Shown: piece after piece, positions 9,018 to 27,169 of the stretch
Numbering within the stretch: the stretch's first letter is position 1
Layout: every line of letters begins with the position of its first letter
DNA from: a virus
DNA: 27,169 bases
Reading direction: 5' to 3' (one strand)
IMG/VR virus record: IMGVR_UViG_3300044621_001215
Location: 1 to 27,169 of that record
Position numbers and translations under genes: made by a program
Notes under the pieces: model-generated
Seen by the model: the letters and a program-made list of their open reading frames with translations, nothing else
What the model was told of the DNA's origin: nothing
Database searches by the model: none

Positions 9018-9230
9018 ATGACAGAACTACAAAAGCAATACATAGATCAGAACCATAACCAAGAACCAATATCGGTAATGGTAACAGATACCGGCTTGAC
9101 CTACCTTGAAATACTTACCTATTACAAAGAAATGGGCTATGAACCAAGAAAGAAAAGAAGCAGAAGGCATGAACGTAAGACACCTGTTGGCTACTTTGAC
9201 ATTGATAACTATAAACCGGAAACAATATGA
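9018..9230 (+). CDS. small basic, possibly DNA-binding protein
   Basis: A 70-residue protein: an acidic/neutral N-terminal half with a helix-turn-helix-like span (ISVMVTDTGLTYLEILTYYKEMG, discontinuous hydrophobics) followed by a basic cluster (EPRKKRSRRHERK). DNA binding is plausible from charge and layout but unproven. Start follows an AAAAAATC-ATG leader; stop overlaps the next start (ATGA). Confidence 0.55.
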   Translation: MTELQKQYIDQNHNQEPISVMVTDTGLTYLEILTYYKEMGYEPRKKRSRRHERKTPVGYFDIDNYKPETI

Positions 9231-9847
9231 AATTAAATTCAAGCATACCAAACTTTAAGGCATTGGTAAAGAAATCATTTTTTACAAAAGATGATAACGA
9301 TAGCAACGAGTACTACAATGTTTATGTATTCGGCATACAATCATTTGCAGGTAAGATACTCACCTTCCATGTTATTACAGACTCCGGCATGTTAAGAAGC
9401 AGGGTGCCAATATCAGAGATATATACCAAAGTTCCGACAAACGATATACCATTTTATTACAAACAATTATGGGATTGTTTTAGTGAGAATGTAGCAGTTG
9501 TTGAGTATGAGTTTTTAGCCTTCCATAAGGCTCAGGTAGTATTAAGAAATGGCAGTAAGGTATGGGCTACATATATCTTAACTATTGACTGGTATAACAA
9601 TCCATATAGCAAAGAGCCTTCCGACTACAAATGCGGTCATTTGCTTGAATCTGATGACGGATATTTATTGTGTATGCCGAACAATAGAATATTCTGGAAA
9701 GACTCCAACTTTGTAACCAAGCCACTACCAGATGATTTGAAGCAGTTTAAGGTAGATACTGAACTTCCTTCCGTAGAAAACCAATCGGATAGGTGGGTTG
9801 CAGAAGATACAAATTCATTTTATTATGACATAATAGAAAACATATAA
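9227..9847 (+). CDS. conserved phage hypothetical protein, 206 residues
   Basis: This is the largest plus-strand gene before the glycosylation island. Features include YYNVYVFGIQSFAGKILTFHV (~29-49), QLWDCFSENVAVVEYEFL (~81-98), TIDWYNNPYSKEPSDYKCGH (~119-138) and PNNRIFWKDSNFVTKPLP (~151-168). I associate the QLWDCFS / TIDWYNN / PNNRxxW / FVTKP series with a conserved family in Bacteroidota phages whose function is unknown. No signal peptide or TM segment. ATGA overlap with the previous gene. Confidence 0.75.
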   Translation: MKLNSSIPNFKALVKKSFFTKDDNDSNEYYNVYVFGIQSFAGKILTFHVITDSGMLRSRVPISEIYTKVPTNDIPFYYKQLWDCFSENVAVVEYEFLAFHKAQVVLRNGSKVWATYILTIDWYNNPYSKEPSDYKCGHLLESDDGYLLCMPNNRIFWKDSNFVTKPLPDDLKQFKVDTELPSVENQSDRWVAEDTNSFYYDIIENI

Positions 9848-14492: not shown

Positions 14493-15475
14493 TATAATAT
14501 TTTACCTTGAAAGATACGCTTATTCTTAAATTCAAAATCTTCCCCGTTTTCATCTAAATCTACTTCTGCAAAGCCATGATTCCATTTGTTTAATGGCATA
14601 TAGGACGGATGTAATTCTGATAAACACCCTAAACTCCAAGTAGTAACCATTTTACCTGCAAGTGTTGGTTCAGTATGCTCACTTGTTTGGTGATTATGCC
14701 CCTGAAAGCAACTAACCTTAGATTTAAGGAATAGGCCTCGCGCCGGATTTACTGGGGCAGATATACCGCCAATATATTCGTGACCATGAATACCCCACAA
14801 GTTATTTAACTTCATAGGTCTTTTATCTGCTATGACTTCAATACCTCTGGCTCTTGCCTTAATAATATTCTGAAATTCAAACTCCTCAATGCCTACTAAC
14901 TCTCCGGCTTTCTCATAAAGAAAATGCTCATATCTTTCTTCATGATTTCCAAGTTTAAAATAAATTTTGCATTTCAATTCCTTTTCAAACACATCAAACA
15001 AAGCCTTGAATGTATCAAGCTCTAATTTGAAGTTACGCTTCTTTGGATCTTTAATAAACCTACTAAGCCTATGGCAGTCTATTGTATCTCCGTTTAATAA
15101 CAAAGCGTCTGGCTTACTTTTCTTTAAGTAATCAAGCGCAGCAGTTATGCTCGCAATGTTGTGGTAGGGTACATGAATATCAGACAATATAGCTACTCGC
15201 TTATGTCCTTTTATTTCATAGGGGGCGAACTCCGTTTCATCGCTATCAGGCAGATTGTAAGGGTTCTTTGGTCTTTCTGGCATTTGTATTATAGTTTTGA
15301 ATTTTCTATTTTCAGATCCATGTTTCCCCTCTATATACCTTAAAGATAATCTCGCGGCCTCTACATCTTTAAACAAAAGATTGTTTTCAGCATACATTAT
15401 TCTAGCTAGTTTTAGAGTAGGCATTTTCCACCCATGCTCCTCTCTGTATTTTCTTGCTAAGCCCGATTTGTTCAT
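14492..15475 (-). CDS. calcineurin-like metallophosphoesterase
   Basis: A 327-residue protein. All core motifs are present: SDIH (98-101), NGDTID (128-133), GNHEERY (176-182), HGHEY (230-234) and GHNHQ (259-263), which bind two metals and hydrolyse phosphate esters or phosphodiesters. The N-terminal ~60 residues form a separate helical, basic, HTH-like domain (KYREEHGWKMPTLKLARIM) that may bind DNA, consistent with nuclease or DNA-processing activity. Located between a homing endonuclease and the DUF3310 gene; start overlaps the upstream stop (TAATG). Confidence 0.9.
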   Translation of the reverse strand: MNKSGLARKYREEHGWKMPTLKLARIMYAENNLLFKDVEAARLSLRYIEGKHGSENRKFKTIIQMPERPKNPYNLPDSDETEFAPYEIKGHKRVAILSDIHVPYHNIASITAALDYLKKSKPDALLLNGDTIDCHRLSRFIKDPKKRNFKLELDTFKALFDVFEKELKCKIYFKLGNHEERYEHFLYEKAGELVGIEEFEFQNIIKARARGIEVIADKRPMKLNNLWGIHGHEYIGGISAPVNPARGLFLKSKVSCFQGHNHQTSEHTEPTLAGKMVTTWSLGCLSELHPSYMPLNKWNHGFAEVDLDENGEDFEFKNKRIFQGKIL

Positions 15476-16137
15476 TATGCTACATATTTAAAAGAGTACC
15501 CTTTTACTTTTTTCCTACTGCCCAACCCTCTAGCAATTAGAGAAGCTTTGCCACTATATTTTACAGGATTTAAGCCAACTGAACGCAGAGCTTCCGAAAC
15601 AGAATGATATACACCAATAGATTCATTAGTATCACAATTTATGATTTCAGTTTTTTTAGCTTGTCCAGATTTTATGCTTGCCAACGATTGTTTCTTTTTT
15701 GTTTCTTCTGTCCTTTTCCTTGATTCAAAAACGCCTCTTTTCAAAAGGGTTTCATAACTTTGTTTTATACCAAACCTATGGTTTTTAGAACCAATTTTTT
15801 GTTCCCTTAACTTTTTACGCGTTTCTTCTGATCTAATGCAATTCCAAATACCATCTCCGCCATCAGTCAAATTACATAAAATCCCATTATTCAAATCTTT
15901 TCTGCCATACAACTTAATAAACTCTTTCTCCTTTTCAGATGCCTCTTCTTTTGTTAATTTATCAATTATTATCTCAACTTCATAAAGAGATTTCAATACA
16001 ATGTCATTCCATATCTTATTTCTTTTAGAAGAATGGTTCTCATAAGCCCTTGAGTAATTAGATTTATTACCTATCCCTATATAGAAAGGTTCATTTTTAT
16101 CAAGTCTAATATGTCTATAAACGTACCAGTTGTTCAT
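15475..16137 (-). CDS. GIY-YIG homing endonuclease with NUMOD modules, copy A
   Basis: A 220-residue protein. GIY-YIG domain ~1-95: WYVYRHIRL then FYIGIG (18-23), Arg30 in RAY, Glu in KEKEFIKLYGR (70-79) and Asn89 before LTDGGDG. NUMOD3-type segment RSEETRKKLREQKIG (~100-115). The C-terminal part (SIGVYHSVSEALRSVGL) resembles NUMOD1. It makes site-specific cuts to spread its own gene. Inserted between endolysin and phosphoesterase genes; close paralogue of 23558-24301, sharing most of the first ~95 residues. Confidence 0.92.
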   Translation of the reverse strand: MNNWYVYRHIRLDKNEPFYIGIGNKSNYSRAYENHSSKRNKIWNDIVLKSLYEVEIIIDKLTKEEASEKEKEFIKLYGRKDLNNGILCNLTDGGDGIWNCIRSEETRKKLREQKIGSKNHRFGIKQSYETLLKRGVFESRKRTEETKKKQSLASIKSGQAKKTEIINCDTNESIGVYHSVSEALRSVGLNPVKYSGKASLIARGLGSRKKVKGYSFKYVA

Positions 16138-19142: not shown

Positions 19143-20489
19143 ATGCCAACTAGCTTTCAATTCTTCAAGCAAGAAGTCAGGGATTACATTGTAGATAACG
19201 TAGCCGTAAACAAAAAGATATTAGATGTAGGAGCTGGTATTGGCACCTATTCTGATTTGCTTAAAAACTATGGTTACTACATGGATTGCGTAGAGATATA
19301 CGAACCCTATGTAGTTAATTACCAATTAGATAAGAAGTACAATAACGTCTTTATACAGAGTGTAGTTGGCTTCCATTTTGACTATTACGAGTTCATTATC
19401 ATGGGAGATGTGCTGGAACATTTATCTGTGGAAGATGCACAAAGCATAATCAAAAAGATAGTCCATAGCGGTAAACAATGTCTGGTGGCAGTGCCATATC
19501 TGATGGAACAGGGAGAGCATGAAGGCAATGTCCATGAAACTCATTTACAGCCTGATTTAAGTCCGGCAGTCATGGAAACCAGATACCCAGAACTTCAACT
19601 ACTCTATGCCAACCAGTACTATGGTTATTATGTAAACAAGAAACAAAAGCATAAAAGAGCCTATCTGTTGTATGCAGATGAATCATATGCCGACTTGGTT
19701 CAAGTATGTGTTGAATCAATCCGTAAGTTCAGTAACATACCAATCTTAGTTTACATGCTTAACTCTGATAAAAAGATTGAAGATACTGAAACAATAAGAT
19801 GGGATTGTGATGTAAAGCACCTGAAACAAAGGGCTGATTACATTGATAGATCCAATAAAAGCATCTACAAACTACTTATACAAAGACCTTTAATAACTAA
19901 ACATGCACTTGAAAACTATGCTGAAACGATTGCCTATGTTGATTCTGATTCTGTGGCAAGCCCCTACGTTGACAATATCTTTACTTTCTATAATGAAGAA
20001 TCTAGTCACCCCTATTTTACAGAAGGTATCTATGAGTATCTTATGGTCAATGGTAGAGGCGGCGCTGAAAGTAGGGCGGATTTAAGCACTACATTAGAAG
20101 CACCAGCCTGTGAACTATTTAACATAAACCAATATGTCCGCAATAGATACAGGCAAACAGGATATTATGTTGCAGGGCAGAATACCATTGAATTTTTAGA
20201 TGAGTGGTACTGGATGTGCAACCACCCTAAAGTATTAAAGAACCACAATTATTACGCACCCTTCCACGAAGAAACCATACTTCAAGCCCTTTTGTATAAG
20301 CGTATGACATTTTCAGGACTGCCATACTGCTACATCAATGGACTACATAAAGACCTAGAATTTACTGGTCATGATAACTTAATAGGGCCATGGATTAAAG
20401 TACCTTCACACAAAGAACATCTCCTATTCTATCATGGAGAAAAGAACATTCAAAAGATTAAAGAATTTATAAACCAACTAAACAAATAA
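19143..20489 (+). CDS. methyltransferase-glycosyltransferase fusion
   Basis: A 448-residue two-domain protein. Residues ~1-165 form a class I SAM methyltransferase: KKILDVGAGIGTYSDLL (~24-40), acidic CVEIYEP as motif II, and IIMGDVLEHLS, typical of the Methyltransf_11/UbiG-like group. From ~170 (RAYLLYADESYADL) a GT-A-like domain begins, with a DxD motif in IAYVDSDSVASPYVDN (~264-279) and HEETILQALLY later. It probably both transfers and methylates a sugar, or acts on the same glycan as the following genes. No signal or TM segment. It opens a three-gene plus-strand operon. Confidence 0.75.
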   Translation: MPTSFQFFKQEVRDYIVDNVAVNKKILDVGAGIGTYSDLLKNYGYYMDCVEIYEPYVVNYQLDKKYNNVFIQSVVGFHFDYYEFIIMGDVLEHLSVEDAQSIIKKIVHSGKQCLVAVPYLMEQGEHEGNVHETHLQPDLSPAVMETRYPELQLLYANQYYGYYVNKKQKHKRAYLLYADESYADLVQVCVESIRKFSNIPILVYMLNSDKKIEDTETIRWDCDVKHLKQRADYIDRSNKSIYKLLIQRPLITKHALENYAETIAYVDSDSVASPYVDNIFTFYNEESSHPYFTEGIYEYLMVNGRGGAESRADLSTTLEAPACELFNINQYVRNRYRQTGYYVAGQNTIEFLDEWYWMCNHPKVLKNHNYYAPFHEETILQALLYKRMTFSGLPYCYINGLHKDLEFTGHDNLIGPWIKVPSHKEHLLFYHGEKNIQKIKEFINQLNK

Positions 20490-20492
20490 CCT

Positions 20493-20708
20493 ATGAAAAC
20501 AGCAATGCAAGAACATTTTGAATGGTTACAAGAGAATCAATTATACTTTGGTATACCTATTGAGGCTATTGATAATGCTGAAGATTTACTTGAAAAAGAA
20601 AAAGAGCAGATAATTAAAGCGCATATAGATGGCTTTGACCATATTGTTGTAGATTTTAAAAAACAAGAATACGCAGAACAATACTACAACCAAACCTATA
20701 ACCAATGA
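20493..20708 (+). CDS. small phage protein of the MKTAxQE family
   Basis: A 71-residue acidic helical protein: MKTAMQEHFEWLQE, LLEKEKEQIIKAHIDG and the ending EYAEQYYNQTY. This pattern is common for small Bacteroidota phage proteins. Its 5' end, ATAACCTATGAAAACAGCA, is identical to that of the gene at 9851. It starts 3 nt after the upstream stop and overlaps the downstream heptosyltransferase by 4 nt (ATGA), so it is co-translated with glycan enzymes. Confidence 0.7.
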   Translation: MKTAMQEHFEWLQENQLYFGIPIEAIDNAEDLLEKEKEQIIKAHIDGFDHIVVDFKKQEYAEQYYNQTYNQ

Positions 20709-22714
20709 GAATATTATTTTTAGCTCCGCATCTTAGCACAGGGGGTATGCCCCAGTTCCTTTTGAAAAGACTTCAAGGACTGATAAATTATACCAATAAT
20801 GAATATTATGTGGTAGAGTATCAATGCCATAGCCTAGATTATGTAGTTCAACGTAATGCCATATTGGAAATAATTGGTAGTAATTTTACTACCCTTTATG
20901 AGAATAAGATGGAGCTATTTGATGTAATAGAAAGCTTCCAGCCTGATATAATCCATATAGATGAAATGTCTGAAAGATTGGATAGGGAGATGGTAAAAAA
21001 GCTTTACAACCCAGAAAGAAAGTATCGCATTGTGGAAACCTGCCATGACATATCTTTTGATCCGAACAGCAAGTTATTCCACCCAGACCTGTATTCTTTT
21101 TGCACTCCTTATCATGAAGAAACTTTCGCTGATTTAGAATCCAAGTATGTTACAATAGAATACCCTATAGACATAAAAGAATGTAGAGCCAAAAGAAAAG
21201 TAAAAAATGTTCTTAATGTTGGACTGTGGACTCGTGGTAAAAATCAAGGGGAAGGCATAGAGATTGCTCGCAAATACCCCGATATGACATTTCATTTTGT
21301 TGGCAACCAAGCTGGTAACTTTAAAGACTATTGGGAACCATTGATGCAAGATTTGCCGCCTAATGTAATTGTGCATGGTGAGAGAAGTGATGTAGATGAG
21401 TTTATGAAGATGGCTGATATGTTCATGTTTAACTCTACATGGGAGTGTAATCCATTAGTTTTGCGTGAAGCAATAGGATATGGTTTGCCTATTATAGCCA
21501 GAAATTTACCTCAATATAGAGATATGTTTACTGATTATTTACAACCAATAGATACAGATTTAAACACAATTGAAGCAGATTATGAAATACCAATAAACAA
21601 CACTACAAGTTGTTTTGCGATAGCGCATCAGGAAGCCTATGAAAAGATATTAGAACTTCCAGCACAAAAACAAAAGGTCCGCATCTTACAAAACTTCATT
21701 AACCACCCTTTCCTTGAAATAAAAGGAGAAAGCGATAGTGACTTTGATGTTAGATTCTATGATGAAAATGATGTATGCCAATACCAAAGCATAATCAAAA
21801 GTAATAGCTGGGTAAGGCTTAACAGACAATACTATACCAAATGGAAAACGTATGTATATCAGGACGGCGAGTTAATATATGAAAACATATTAGACCTGCA
21901 TGGTAAAAGGGTATTCATATCAATAGAAAGCAGCGCACTTGGAGATACGATTGCGTGGTCACCCTATGCATTAGAGTTCCAAAAGAAGCATGGTTGCAAG
22001 GTTATTTTGTCTACTTTTCATAATAAAATACTGGACTATCCTGAACTTGAATTAGTAGAACCCGGCAGTTCTGTTAATTGCTATGCCATGTATAAGATTG
22101 GTTGGCACTATGATACCAATAGAGAACCAGAACTTCCAAACACAATACCACTACAAAAGGCAGCATGTAATATTTTGGGCTTAAAATACACTGAAATTCG
22201 CCCCAAATTATTTACCAAGAGGAATTGTCCAGAGCATGATAAATACATCACTATTGCCACTAATTCTACCACAGGATGTAAGTTTTGGATAAGGGATGAA
22301 TGGCAGAAGCTAATTAACTATTATACCGAACAAGGCTACAAGGTATACAATGTTTCCAAAGAAGTTAATCCATTTGATAATTGCCCACAGATACCAAATA
22401 CATCAATGGAATCCACAATGGATTGGATATACCATAGTACATTTTTTGTAGGGCTTAGCAGTGGCTTATCGTGGCTCGCGTGGAGTCTAGGTAAACAAGT
22501 TGTACTAATAAGCAACTTTACTGAATTTGACCATGAGTTCCTTACCAACTGCATACGAATCACAAACGAAAAAGTATGTCATGGATGCTGGAATAAACCA
22601 GAAATAAAATTTGATAAAGGCAATTGGAATTGGTGCCCATACAATAAGAACTTTGAGTGCCAGACATCAATTACCGCAGAAATGGTAATAAATAGAATTA
22701 GTCGTTACTTCTAA
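20705..22714 (+). CDS. GT4 glycosyltransferase fused to TibC-like O-heptosyltransferase
   Basis: A 669-residue bifunctional protein. Residues 1-~300 are a GT4/GT-B enzyme: LSTGGMPQFLLKRLQGL at the N-terminus, NVGLWTRGKNQGEGIEIA (~168-185) and the E-x7-E signature in STWECNPLVLREAIGYG. After a ~100-residue linker, ~400-669 resembles the bacterial autotransporter heptosyltransferases (Aah/TibC): ESSALGDTIAWSPY, STTGCKFWIRDEW, VGLSSGLSWLAW, and the cysteine site C625-x2-C628-x15-C644-x7-C652, as used for iron binding in TibC. TibC/Aah add heptose to Ser residues of autotransporter adhesins in the cytoplasm; the phage substrate is unknown. Last gene of the operon, followed by a strong terminator. 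Confidence 0.88.
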   Translation: MRILFLAPHLSTGGMPQFLLKRLQGLINYTNNEYYVVEYQCHSLDYVVQRNAILEIIGSNFTTLYENKMELFDVIESFQPDIIHIDEMSERLDREMVKKLYNPERKYRIVETCHDISFDPNSKLFHPDLYSFCTPYHEETFADLESKYVTIEYPIDIKECRAKRKVKNVLNVGLWTRGKNQGEGIEIARKYPDMTFHFVGNQAGNFKDYWEPLMQDLPPNVIVHGERSDVDEFMKMADMFMFNSTWECNPLVLREAIGYGLPIIARNLPQYRDMFTDYLQPIDTDLNTIEADYEIPINNTTSCFAIAHQEAYEKILELPAQKQKVRILQNFINHPFLEIKGESDSDFDVRFYDENDVCQYQSIIKSNSWVRLNRQYYTKWKTYVYQDGELIYENILDLHGKRVFISIESSALGDTIAWSPYALEFQKKHGCKVILSTFHNKILDYPELELVEPGSSVNCYAMYKIGWHYDTNREPELPNTIPLQKAACNILGLKYTEIRPKLFTKRNCPEHDKYITIATNSTTGCKFWIRDEWQKLINYYTEQGYKVYNVSKEVNPFDNCPQIPNTSMESTMDWIYHSTFFVGLSSGLSWLAWSLGKQVVLISNFTEFDHEFLTNCIRITNEKVCHGCWNKPEIKFDKGNWNWCPYNKNFECQTSITAEMVINRISRYF

Positions 22715-23162: not shown

Positions 23163-23552
23163 TTATGGAGCCTCAGTTGTTGTAGTTGTATCAGGGGCTT
23201 TTGTAGTAGTCGTGGTGGTTGTTGTTGGAAGCCAAGGCAATGGAAGTGTAACCTCAACAGGATTTATCTGTAAAGCAATATTGTTCTCTAAAGCTAATTG
23301 CATAGCTTCAACAGGCAATATTTCTTCCAGCCACCCGATAACTTCTGATTCTGTTACATCTGGGTAAGGAATAAAGTTTTGTGGATTTGGCTGAGCTACG
23401 CTTGATGAACCATAGCTTTCTGCAAAATAAACCTTTCCATCATGCTCTTGTGTAGCATTATATCTCCAATGTATCATATTGATTACATCAGGTAAACCTT
23501 CTGATTCTACAGCGCAATTGAGCTGCGAAATTACGAACTGAAAATTTGTCAT
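23163..23552 (-). CDS. phage protein (DUF7936-like) with poly-Thr tail
   Basis: A 129-residue protein. The core (VINMIHWRYNATQEHDGK, FAESYGSSSVAQ, NFIPYPDVTESEVIGWLEE) resembles a small family (DUF7936 in my recollection) found in tailed phages including cyanophages; function unknown, but next to tail genes it may be a virion or assembly protein. The C-terminus is low complexity: T110-T117, KAPD, five Thr, EAP. The Thr codons are mixed (ACA, ACC, ACG, ACT), so the tract is kept at protein level. It follows the GIY-YIG gene. Confidence 0.7.
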   Translation of the reverse strand: MTNFQFVISQLNCAVESEGLPDVINMIHWRYNATQEHDGKVYFAESYGSSSVAQPNPQNFIPYPDVTESEVIGWLEEILPVEAMQLALENNIALQINPVEVTLPLPWLPTTTTTTTTKAPDTTTTTEAP

Positions 23553-23557
23553 TTTAT

Positions 23558-24301
23558 TTAATTTTTATATTTCCAAATACTTTTTTTATGATGCTTATAT
23601 ACACCATTTATGCATTTCCATATAGCTACATTACAATATCCTTCTTTTTTAGCACTCAAAATTGAATTCCATTCTTTTATAAGACTACCATCTAAATCAA
23701 ACTGTAATATACTCCTACGTCTTGATGCAGCTATTTTCTCTTTGGTTTCATTGCTTGCTTTTTTGCCTAAGCAGGGATGCCCATTTATTTTAAAATTATT
23801 TCTAATCTTTTCCTTATGCTCCTCCGACCTTATTTTGCCCTTATTTGCTAAACTTACTTTTTTATTAATTTCTTCTTGTGGAGTTGTTCTCAATAAGTAT
23901 TTTTTATTACCTAATTGAGCCTTGCCCATTTTTGACCTTGTTTCTTCTGAATAAAACCTTCCTATGCTTTTTTCTCCTATCTTTCTTTTATGTTCATCTG
24001 TGAATAATATTCCAACAACTCCATCTCCTCCGTCAGTCATATTAGCCAAAGTTCCCGTTTTCAAATCCTTTCTTCCATATAAAGCAATAAATTCCCTCTC
24101 TTTATCACAAGCTTCTTCCCAAGAAAATTCATCAAAAATAACTTCAACCTCATATTCTGTTTTAGCAACAATATCTAACCAAATCTTATTCCTTCTATTT
24201 TTGCTATAATCGTAAGCTCTTTTATGGTTTGATTGATTGCCAATGCCAATATAGAACGGCTCATTTTTGTCAAGTCTGATATGTCGGTAAACGTATGCCA
24301 T
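23558..24301 (-). CDS. GIY-YIG homing endonuclease with NUMOD3 repeats, copy B
   Basis: A 247-residue protein. GIY-YIG domain ~1-95: YVYRHIRLDKNEPFYIGIGN, Arg in KRAY, Glu in CDKEREFIALYGR and Asn before MTDGGDG. NUMOD3-type repeats follow (TDEHKRKIGEKSIG, SEETRSKMGKAQLG, SEEHKEKIR). The C-terminus (DLDGSLIKEWNSILSAKKE) resembles NUMOD1 or a small HTH. Its first third is closely related to copy A (15475-16137) also at DNA level. Inserted between the tail fibre gene and the DUF7936-like gene. Confidence 0.92.
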   Translation of the reverse strand: MAYVYRHIRLDKNEPFYIGIGNQSNHKRAYDYSKNRRNKIWLDIVAKTEYEVEVIFDEFSWEEACDKEREFIALYGRKDLKTGTLANMTDGGDGVVGILFTDEHKRKIGEKSIGRFYSEETRSKMGKAQLGNKKYLLRTTPQEEINKKVSLANKGKIRSEEHKEKIRNNFKINGHPCLGKKASNETKEKIAASRRRSILQFDLDGSLIKEWNSILSAKKEGYCNVAIWKCINGVYKHHKKSIWKYKN

Positions 24302-24354: not shown

Positions 24355-27169
24355 TTATTTATTTTTTAATGTGTCTAATTCTTGTTTTAATTCTTTGATT
24401 GCATTAACTAGGGTAACAAAGATTCCTTCATTCTCTAAACCTAAGTAGTCTGTATTTGCTCCCAGTCTTCTTACTAGGTCAGGCATTACATCCTTAACTT
24501 CCTGAGCGATGAAACCATATTTCAATCTAGCCTTAGTTACATCATCGTTGTAGTAGAAGGTCTTAGGGTTTAATTGAAGCACCTCGTTTAATCCGTAGGT
24601 TAAAGGAGTAATGGTATTCTTAAGTCTGTAGTCTGAAGGGTTAGTATTGGTTAGGAATCCTGCATTTGAATAAACAGTACCTGTACCTAATGCTCCAACA
24701 TATACACTTCCAAATGCACCTATTCCATTTACATAGAACTTAGCTCCTTGAGTTGTTGATGTTGCGTTTACTAATACATCCCCCCCATTTGTTAGCCTCA
24801 TTACTTCTGTTCCACTATTCATTACATCGTAAGTCATATTAACTTTAAATGTAAGTGCTTTACTCAAATAACTATTTGTGCCAATTCCTGCTTCATTTGT
24901 TAATGAATATAGTTGTAATGTAGGTGTATCGCCACCATCTAACATAACGCCAACATTACCAGCTAACGCACCACCGAATATTGTTAATTTTTGACCCGGA
25001 TTACTTGTATTTATACCTACGTTACCATCCCCTCTAATGTTAAAATATGGAATAGTATTAGCAGCGTTATTTACTTTAAATGCTACATCACTAGAATTTG
25101 TACCACCTCTTATAATTGCTCCATAAGATTGACTTGTTGTAGTACTTGCATAAGTGCTTAAAGCCCAATTATTAGCAATTCCAACTACTTCTAATCTATT
25201 TCCATTATCTGTTGTAATTCCTATTAATACATTACCCCCACTTGTTATGCGCATACGCTCTGCATTCCCAACACTAAATCCAATTGCATCAACTCCACTT
25301 GGTAAAAATAAGCCACTATTTGAGTTGTAAAAACGAACACTTGGCGCAGAAGAAGTTCCGTCTGCTGCATAAATTTGACTCCTAAATCTTGCTATACCAT
25401 TAACATCTAATAATTCCGTTGGATTGTTAGTACCTATACCTACGTTACCATTTCCTAATATTCGCATTTTTTCAGTTGCCGTATTAGTAGTACCCGATGA
25501 TTTATTTTCAGTTGCAAAAGCTAAATATGAAGCATAAATAGCTGTTGGGGCATCTCTACCAACTAAAATATTTGCGTGATACCAACCAATGCTATTTGGT
25601 GTGCCTCTTAATGTTATTGTCGAGCCGTCATATCCAGGTGATAATAATATACCGGTAGTATTTACTGAATCACTATAACTTGTAATACCATTTGAAACAC
25701 TTAAAATACTACTTGAAAATGTAGCTGCTCCTGTTGAGGCTATGTTTAATGGAGTAATATATGTAGAGCCTGTTTGTGTTGTAGATACCTGTATTGCAAA
25801 GTCTCCCCAATTAATTTGGTCATTAGATAATCTCCAACTTCTTGAACCAGTATTTGGTCCACTATTATAGAATAAAAGCCCTTGCGCTCCTGCCGTATTT
25901 GATGCACTATTTAAATATAAAAATTGTGTAAATCTACCTGTTCCACTCACATCAAGTTTAAAAGTATCATTAGTGTTTCCTATTGATAAATTACCAGAAG
26001 CGTTTAACGTCATTGCTTGGGTAAAGGATATAGCGTTACCTGCCGTTCCTGATGGAGCTTGTCTAAATTTAATAGCACCATCTTCAAATCGTATTTGCTC
26101 GGCAGTTCCATTAGCTATATACCTAAAAGAACTATTGCCATAATAAGTATTTATTTGAAAGCCGCCATCATTTGCAGCATAACCATAAATACTTGCTCTA
26201 CCAACTTGAAATCCTGTTACCGTATTCCACGCACTCGGTGTAACTCCTAATCCTAAATTGCCTCTATTCAAAATATAATTAGAAGCCTCAAAAGTCATAG
26301 GAATATAAGCAGCCGTACTTCTATTGTAAGTAATAACTGAACCTGTATTGCTAAATTCCCAACCTGCTGCTCCTGAATTGCTAATTACAAAACTATCATT
26401 GAAACTTGTTGTACCAATAGAAACTCTACCTGTACCATTATCTGAAATAGAACTATTACCTATTGTACTTGCACCTGTAAACTTAGGTAGGTAGTTTGTA
26501 GTACCTGTACCACCAACAGGGTTAGCAGGAATTGCACTTGTTAAAGCTAATGTTCCGGTAGCACTTGGTAGCGTAAAAGTGTTAGTGCCGTTTGTAATTG
26601 TAGAACCTAATGTAAGCTGACCTGCAAAGTTAGCTGCTCCGTTGTCTGACAAAGTAATAACGTTGCTACCTTGCTTTTGAATTGTAAAAGGTGCAGATGT
26701 AGATGCCGTTGTATTATTTATGATAATACCAAAGCCGCTTGCACTTGATGCTATGTTTAATGCTCTACCTGATGAATGATTAATTTTTAAGCCATCGCCT
26801 GTGCTACTATTTGTAATTTCTACACCTATGCCACTTCCTGCATTTGCAAATGTAGAAGTAGTGCCAATTATAGCACCTGTCATAGTACCACCTGCTAATG
26901 GAAGGTAAAGAGAAGATGCAGCACTTGTAGTTAAGTAAGTTGAACTATCTACACTACCATCGGCTTTTAAAAATTGCGAAGATGTGCCGCCCGACTTTAC
27001 TAAAGTAGTTGCGTTTAACGTACCTATAATTGTAGCAGCGTTACCCGAACCGCTTGTTTTGTTTATGTATAAGCCTTCGCCATTACCACCCTTAGTGATA
27101 TTTAAAGCAATACCACTACCGCTTGAATGTGTTATGCCAACTGTATCGCCACTACCAGAACTTGAAAAA
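24355..27169 (-). CDS. tail fibre with S74 intramolecular chaperone, 5' end outside window
   Basis: The frame is open from the window's end: codons before the Met at 26883 read SSLYLPLAGGTMTGAIIGT, a typical fibre motif, and no stop occurs up to 27169, so at least 937 residues are coded and the N-terminus is missing. The shaft is Gly/Ser/Thr/Asn-rich beta repeat, with several GNVGIGT-x-NP-x-ELLDVNG-like units. The last ~97 residues are an S74 endosialidase-type chaperone: SDYRLKNTITPL, LNPKTFYY, YGFIAQEVKDVMPDLV and a C-terminal coiled coil. Family knowledge predicts trimerisation and self-cleavage just before Ser (codon 24634-24636), releasing ~93 residues. Likely receptor-binding fibre. Confidence 0.93.
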   Translation of the reverse strand, partial: FSSSGSGDTVGITHSSGSGIALNITKGGNGEGLYINKTSGSGNAATIIGTLNATTLVKSGGTSSQFLKADGSVDSSTYLTTSAASSLYLPLAGGTMTGAIIGTTSTFANAGSGIGVEITNSSTGDGLKINHSSGRALNIASSASGFGIIINNTTASTSAPFTIQKQGSNVITLSDNGAANFAGQLTLGSTITNGTNTFTLPSATGTLALTSAIPANPVGGTGTTNYLPKFTGASTIGNSSISDNGTGRVSIGTTSFNDSFVISNSGAAGWEFSNTGSVITYNRSTAAYIPMTFEASNYILNRGNLGLGVTPSAWNTVTGFQVGRASIYGYAANDGGFQINTYYGNSSFRYIANGTAEQIRFEDGAIKFRQAPSGTAGNAISFTQAMTLNASGNLSIGNTNDTFKLDVSGTGRFTQFLYLNSASNTAGAQGLLFYNSGPNTGSRSWRLSNDQINWGDFAIQVSTTQTGSTYITPLNIASTGAATFSSSILSVSNGITSYSDSVNTTGILLSPGYDGSTITLRGTPNSIGWYHANILVGRDAPTAIYASYLAFATENKSSGTTNTATEKMRILGNGNVGIGTNNPTELLDVNGIARFRSQIYAADGTSSAPSVRFYNSNSGLFLPSGVDAIGFSVGNAERMRITSGGNVLIGITTDNGNRLEVVGIANNWALSTYASTTTSQSYGAIIRGGTNSSDVAFKVNNAANTIPYFNIRGDGNVGINTSNPGQKLTIFGGALAGNVGVMLDGGDTPTLQLYSLTNEAGIGTNSYLSKALTFKVNMTYDVMNSGTEVMRLTNGGDVLVNATSTTQGAKFYVNGIGAFGSVYVGALGTGTVYSNAGFLTNTNPSDYRLKNTITPLTYGLNEVLQLNPKTFYYNDDVTKARLKYGFIAQEVKDVMPDLVRRLGANTDYLGLENEGIFVTLVNAIKELKQELDTLKNK

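Follow-up and report, generated by a model that had tools for sequence, protein, structure and literature searches.

Bacterial autotransporter heptosyltransferases (BAHT, TIGR04414) use ADP-heptose, form dodecamers, and bind iron. Glycosylated collagen-like and serine-rich repeat adhesins also occur in bacteria, among them BclA and the substrates of SdgB/GtfA. For activity, TibC needs D110, K230, W305, and each of its cysteines (PMC4358343). In mycobacteriophages, virion glycosylation is reported to include capsid and tail tube glycans (Freeman 2023, as cited in PMC12619734 and PMC13313380).

Here the whole 27,169-base contig of viral record IMGVR_UViG_3300044621_001215 (IMG/VR), from an aquatic phage and called the window below, was analyzed. 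We consider, with a probability of roughly 70%, that the cassette at 19143-22714 (Table 1) is a phage-encoded system of O-glycan assembly for repetitive virion fibres. This reading is based on computed domains and folds, invariant catalytic and metal-binding residues, domain fusions, and the co-inheritance of the enzyme with glycine-threonine/serine (GTS) repeats in phages, together with its co-occurrence with such repeats in bacteria.

Table 1. Features of the cassette and the convergent tail fibre in the window
Feature	Coordinates	Strand	Basis or remark
Methyltransferase (residues 1-168) plus GT-A glycosyltransferase (169-447), P0003, 448 aa	19143..20489	+	
71-aa ORF between the enzyme genes, 4-base overlap with P0001 gene	20493..20708	+	No family match
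GT4 plus TibC-like protein P0001, 669 aa	20705..22714	+	Intact ORF; profiles, phmmer, AF2 model
GT4 domain, residues 1-320	20705..21664	+	PF00534 48.8 bits; fold match; conservation
TibC-like domain, residues 324-669	21674..22711	+	TIGR04414 225 bits; Z 35.9 to 4rap_D
Predicted iron-finger cysteines C625, C628, C644, C652	22577..22660	+	Invariant in 40/40 relatives
S74-chaperone tail fibre, convergent, cut by window end	24355..27168	-	Complete in L002:10044-13658, 1204 aa

The fusion protein and its phage context

The original prediction described P0001 as a complete GT4 domain fused to a TibC-like domain and encoded by a phage, and profiles, the structural model, and the viral contig all agree with it. 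The TIGR04414 (hepto_Aah_TibC) profile matched residues 345-667 with 225 bits (cut-off 200), Glycos_transf_1 matched residues 163-278 with 48.8 bits (Pfam cut-off 26.4), and Glyco_transf_9 also scored above its Pfam cut-off. TibC structures 4rap/4rb4 were phmmer matches at about 1e-39. The cysteine set C-x2-C-x15-C-x7-C that had been pointed out lies at residues 625/628/644/652, and the segments ALGDTIAW and GLSSGLSWLAW are at residues 411 and 583, respectively.

The AlphaFold2 model of P0001 has a mean pLDDT of 88.9. Comparison of the model with TibC, which had been proposed as a check, aligned residues 324-669 to 4rap_D with Z 35.9 and an rmsd of 2.0 Å over 341 residues, N-terminal barrel region included. 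Residues 1-318 matched GT4 enzymes with Z up to 27.8 (6eji), with HepE at 27.4, and SdgB and GtfA were among the other GT4s to which this part aligned in structure. The E-x7-E motif is formed by E247 and E255 (21443-21469), and K179 and G13-G14 are conserved. Assignment of residues 1-320 to GT4 is based on the Pfam cut-off, the E-x7-E motif, and the GT-B fold. The GT4-TibC fusion is encoded by about 60 viral contigs, and thus it is not an assembly artefact.

Contig L002 encodes a protein identical to P0001 and extends the window sequence to a tailed-phage portal gene. The closest records to this portal gene are Nonlabens and Cellulophaga phages, which suggests that the host of the window's phage is likely a member of the Bacteroidota. 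The window DNA had no nucleotide match among phage records, and tblastn of phage records returned only four homologues, all distant. A search for Gp23 (T4-like head) found no match anywhere, not even in the control genomes, and so carries no information on the head type. The cassette is also present in a second, crAss-like lineage, whose terminase shares about 25-33% identity with those of Cellulophaga phi4:1 and of crAss-like phages, and 38.8% with that of Leptolyngbya phage Lbo-JY46. Other genes in the window include a 206-aa protein in the left block of small genes (9227-9847, +) that matches phrog_3704 (annotated ferredoxin), and two homing-endonuclease-like genes (phrog_314) at 23558-24301 (-), with NUMOD3, and 15475-16137 (-).

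Active site and donor sugar

Alignment of P0001 with TibC paired D414 with the catalytic base D110, T522 with T226, K526 with K230, and W590 with W305. The four cysteines C625/C628/C644/C652 correspond to TibC C339/342/358/370 and are the predicted iron-finger residues. D414, T522, K526, W590, and all four cysteines are invariant across 40 aligned relatives. The TibC-like domain of P0001 resembles TibC in fold and probably in chemistry.

P0001 could be a true TibC/Aah-like O-heptosyltransferase that uses ADP-heptose of the host and modifies either a virion protein or an adhesin of the host. The TIGR04414 equivalog cut-off is passed, and the catalytic and iron-finger residues are retained. In addition, S585 occupies the site of TibC P300, which concerns stereoselectivity, and AAH, which accepts both ADP-heptose isomers, likewise has a serine there (Ser294). 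However, Arg286, the adenine-contacting residue of TibC that was used as a mark of membership, aligns without gaps to T571 in P0001. This position is T in 33/40 relatives, is mixed in the nearest bacterial homologues, and has kept R in 71/74 copies of the more distant bacterial group. No autotransporter substrate was found among the long window ORFs scanned, and phage relatives of the enzyme pair with GTS fibres instead. We therefore regard a heptosyltransferase of this type as rather unlikely. Loss of Arg286 in the subfamily suggests that the donor may be a nucleotide sugar other than ADP-heptose, so heptose as the first sugar, part of the original prediction, is not established. Because its subfamily is without the adenine-binding Arg and has no link to autotransporters, P0001 is not filed as an autotransporter heptosyltransferase.

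Gene neighbourhood and candidate acceptors

The gene directly upstream of the P0001 gene encodes P0003, with one small ORF between them that is missing between the two enzyme genes in L007. The AF2 model of P0003 has a pLDDT of 87.1. Residues 1-168 matched the SAM methyltransferases BelI/CysG with Z about 15, and the GT-A part matched LgtC and GT6 enzymes with Z about 16, indicating a GT6/GT8-like fold. D267-x-D269 (D-x-D) is invariant in 21 aligned sequences, and the GT-A assignment is based on the fold together with this motif. In many relatives a methyltransferase/GT-A protein of the P0003 type is fused in frame to GT4-TibC in one chain of 1,118-1,182 aa, and in other relatives only the GT-A part is fused to it (953-988 aa). 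Further arrangements include GT4 with TibC in a protein of a Microcystis phage (its annotation reads FkbM methyltransferase), a GT9-TibC-TylF methyltransferase combination (L067), and GT4 and TibC as two separate neighbouring genes (L069).

In relatives, the enzyme gene converges with a gene for a tail fibre in which G-[T/S]-[S/T] triplets (the GTS repeats) form long runs. A GTS ORF lies on the opposite strand at most 4 kb from the enzyme gene in 34 of the 38 full-length relatives whose sequence continues for 6 kb or more downstream. Among the other four, L034 carries GTS repeats elsewhere in its genome. The fibre of L055 has about 400 Ser/Thr within its GTS runs. NCBIfam placed the GTS repeats near collagen-like adhesins with scores below cut-off. 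A tblastn search of the phage collection with a GTS fibre returned no match because low-complexity filtering was on.

Co-occurrence was assessed in crAss-like close relatives sampled by terminase, independently of enzyme or repeat. TIGR04414 was present in 10 of these 36 records. Among the near-complete crAss-like genomes (>=88 kb, query genome left out), the strict GTS pattern occurred in 8/8 TibC-positive and 0/11 TibC-negative records (Fisher p 1.3e-5). Full reading of five TibC-positive genomes showed triplet repeats that were 80-90% S/T, and eight TibC-negative genomes had either no triplet repeats or repeats of Q/P/I type. Exceptions were five fragments of 50-79 kb with GTS repeats and no TIGR04414, and one such fragment with TIGR04414 and no GTS repeats. 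The terminase tree implies about six switches of the TIGR04414 state, of which well-supported branches force at least three, and GTS always switches with it. Phylogenetic inertia as the source of the association is countered by these changes, though only three independent pairs rest on well-supported branches; all three are concordant, but a sign test on so few pairs cannot reach significance.

The reciprocal sample consisted of IMG/VR records picked only by GTS-coding DNA. TIGR04414 scored over its cut-off in 20 of the 33 such records among the matches listed, with 13/33 lacking it. It was found in 0/40 random-pattern IMG/VR records, which differ from the GTS-selected set in being unmatched for size and habitat (p 1.3e-9 for this comparison among the matches listed). 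These 40 records had no GTS repeats.

Bacterial homologues add a second setting for the pairing. Scanning genome contigs with a single sequence found no P0001 relative, and an alignment-based scan of cellular genome contigs found 80 TibC-like loci. An S/T-G repeat protein is present at 12 of the 23 bacterial loci nearest the phage type and at 0/57 of the more distant ones (p 2e-8). These repeat proteins are mostly small, lipoprotein-like or secreted, and encoded near the enzyme gene; the one at L555 is a phage-like fibre. Together with the TibC-like genes, they possibly form a cellular glycoprotein system. Small proteins with Ser/Thr-Gly triplet repeats lie by TibC-like genes at L557, L560, L563, and L569 (Gammaproteobacteria), and at L552, L558 (Methylobacter luteus), L566, L570, and L573. 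The Ser/Thr-Gly proteins near bacterial TibC-like genes are lipoprotein- or signal-peptide-like, and several have Asp-rich tails.

Phage glycosyltransferases are usually proposed to act on the DNA of the phage or on polysaccharide at the host surface, in anti-restriction or superinfection exclusion, and a set of GT4, GT-A, and methyltransferase domains also fits polysaccharide. If this were the role of the cassette, its link to GTS repeats would be indirect. However, the characterised members TibC and AAH have protein substrates, and the repeats and the enzyme switch jointly among close relatives and pair again in bacteria. A DNA or polysaccharide target is therefore quite improbable.

The fibre of the window's phage, an S74-chaperone fibre, occupies the same place as the GTS-repeat fibre of relatives. 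Its complete copy in L002 is free of GTS repeats, and about half of the genome is outside the available sequence. GTS repeats are present in L066, which has a 97%-identical enzyme fragment, and in L007. The acceptor in this phage could instead be some other Ser/Thr-rich protein, for example the 129-aa protein with a C-terminal poly-Thr tail encoded at 23163-23552 (-). The repeat-free fibre in the window favors such an acceptor, as does the position of a poly-Thr protein gene between the enzyme and fibre genes in several relatives. Poly-Thr tails do not track the enzyme, however, and occur in TibC-positive and TibC-negative genomes alike, so we consider this acceptor improbable. Poly-Thr tails or Thr/Ser blocks (TTTTTTEAP-like) were seen in the window protein and at L007:12512-12901 and L081:19369-20000, and one of the homing-endonuclease-like genes in the window sits between the fibre gene and the poly-Thr gene.

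In the preferred reading of O-glycan assembly on virion fibres, we infer enzyme activity, the order in which the enzymes act, and the role of the fibre as acceptor. The TibC-like domain would add the first sugar to Ser/Thr of a repetitive virion fibre, the target in relatives being collagen-like Gly-Thr/Ser-Ser/Thr repeats. The GT4 and GT-A domains linked to it would probably extend the glycan, and the methyltransferase would probably cap or modify it; in many relatives, all four of these domains share a single polypeptide. The association of enzyme and repeats is not proof of modification. A more specific proposal, which we put forward tentatively and at slightly less than even odds, is a distinct branch of the TibC family in tailed phages and some bacteria that is dedicated to collagen-like Gly-Thr/Ser repeats. 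Its phage line would carry the four domains in a single chain for glycan assembly, able to coat hundreds of Ser/Thr sites per fibre and so to give the virion a mucin-like shaft, and the first sugar would not be heptose.

The interpretation in the original prediction is partly supported; it missed the methyltransferase/GT-A neighbour and the GTS fibre as candidate acceptor. It had placed an O-linked glycan on a virion or host protein; a virion protein is the best-supported reading, given the GTS fibres of relatives, and nothing pointed to a host protein.

Comparison with known systems

Our literature search found no paper tying TibC-like enzymes to phages or GTS repeats. Matching a phage enzyme to a specific candidate virion substrate makes the role of phage glycosyltransferases directly testable on defined peptides. 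If the reading is correct, dense fibre glycosylation could influence how the phage adsorbs, how stable its fibres are, and how exposed they are to proteases of the host. The single-chain enzyme could then be used to produce collagen-like polymers with O-linked glycans. Bacterial GTS proteins, through their link to this type of enzyme, point to a wider system of protein glycosylation, of which no description was found in the literature searched.

The TibC-like domain shares with TibC/AAH its whole-domain fold, catalytic Asp, Thr/Lys phosphate contacts, Trp, and the four cysteines of the iron finger (PMC4358343). Unlike TibC/AAH, it is phage-encoded and joined to a GT4 domain, and the chain of many relatives also includes GT-A and methyltransferase domains. 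In addition, Arg286 is lost in P0001, and the genomic partner is a set of GTS collagen-like repeats, not an autotransporter.

Mycobacteriophages are reported to encode glycosyltransferases, in some phages with a methyltransferase, for which decoration of virion proteins has been shown or proposed, and the cassette is likewise proposed to act on the virion. It differs from the reported mycobacteriophage systems in its TibC-type enzyme, in having repetitive fibre shafts as the candidate target, and in its occurrence in phages related to Bacteroidota phages.

Like the BclA and SdgB/GtfA systems, the cassette is proposed here to pair a dedicated enzyme with a low-complexity Ser/Thr repeat that would be densely O-glycosylated. 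Unlike in those systems, the first sugar would probably be added by a GT9/TibC-type domain, and the candidate acceptor is a virion fibre, not a cell adhesin.
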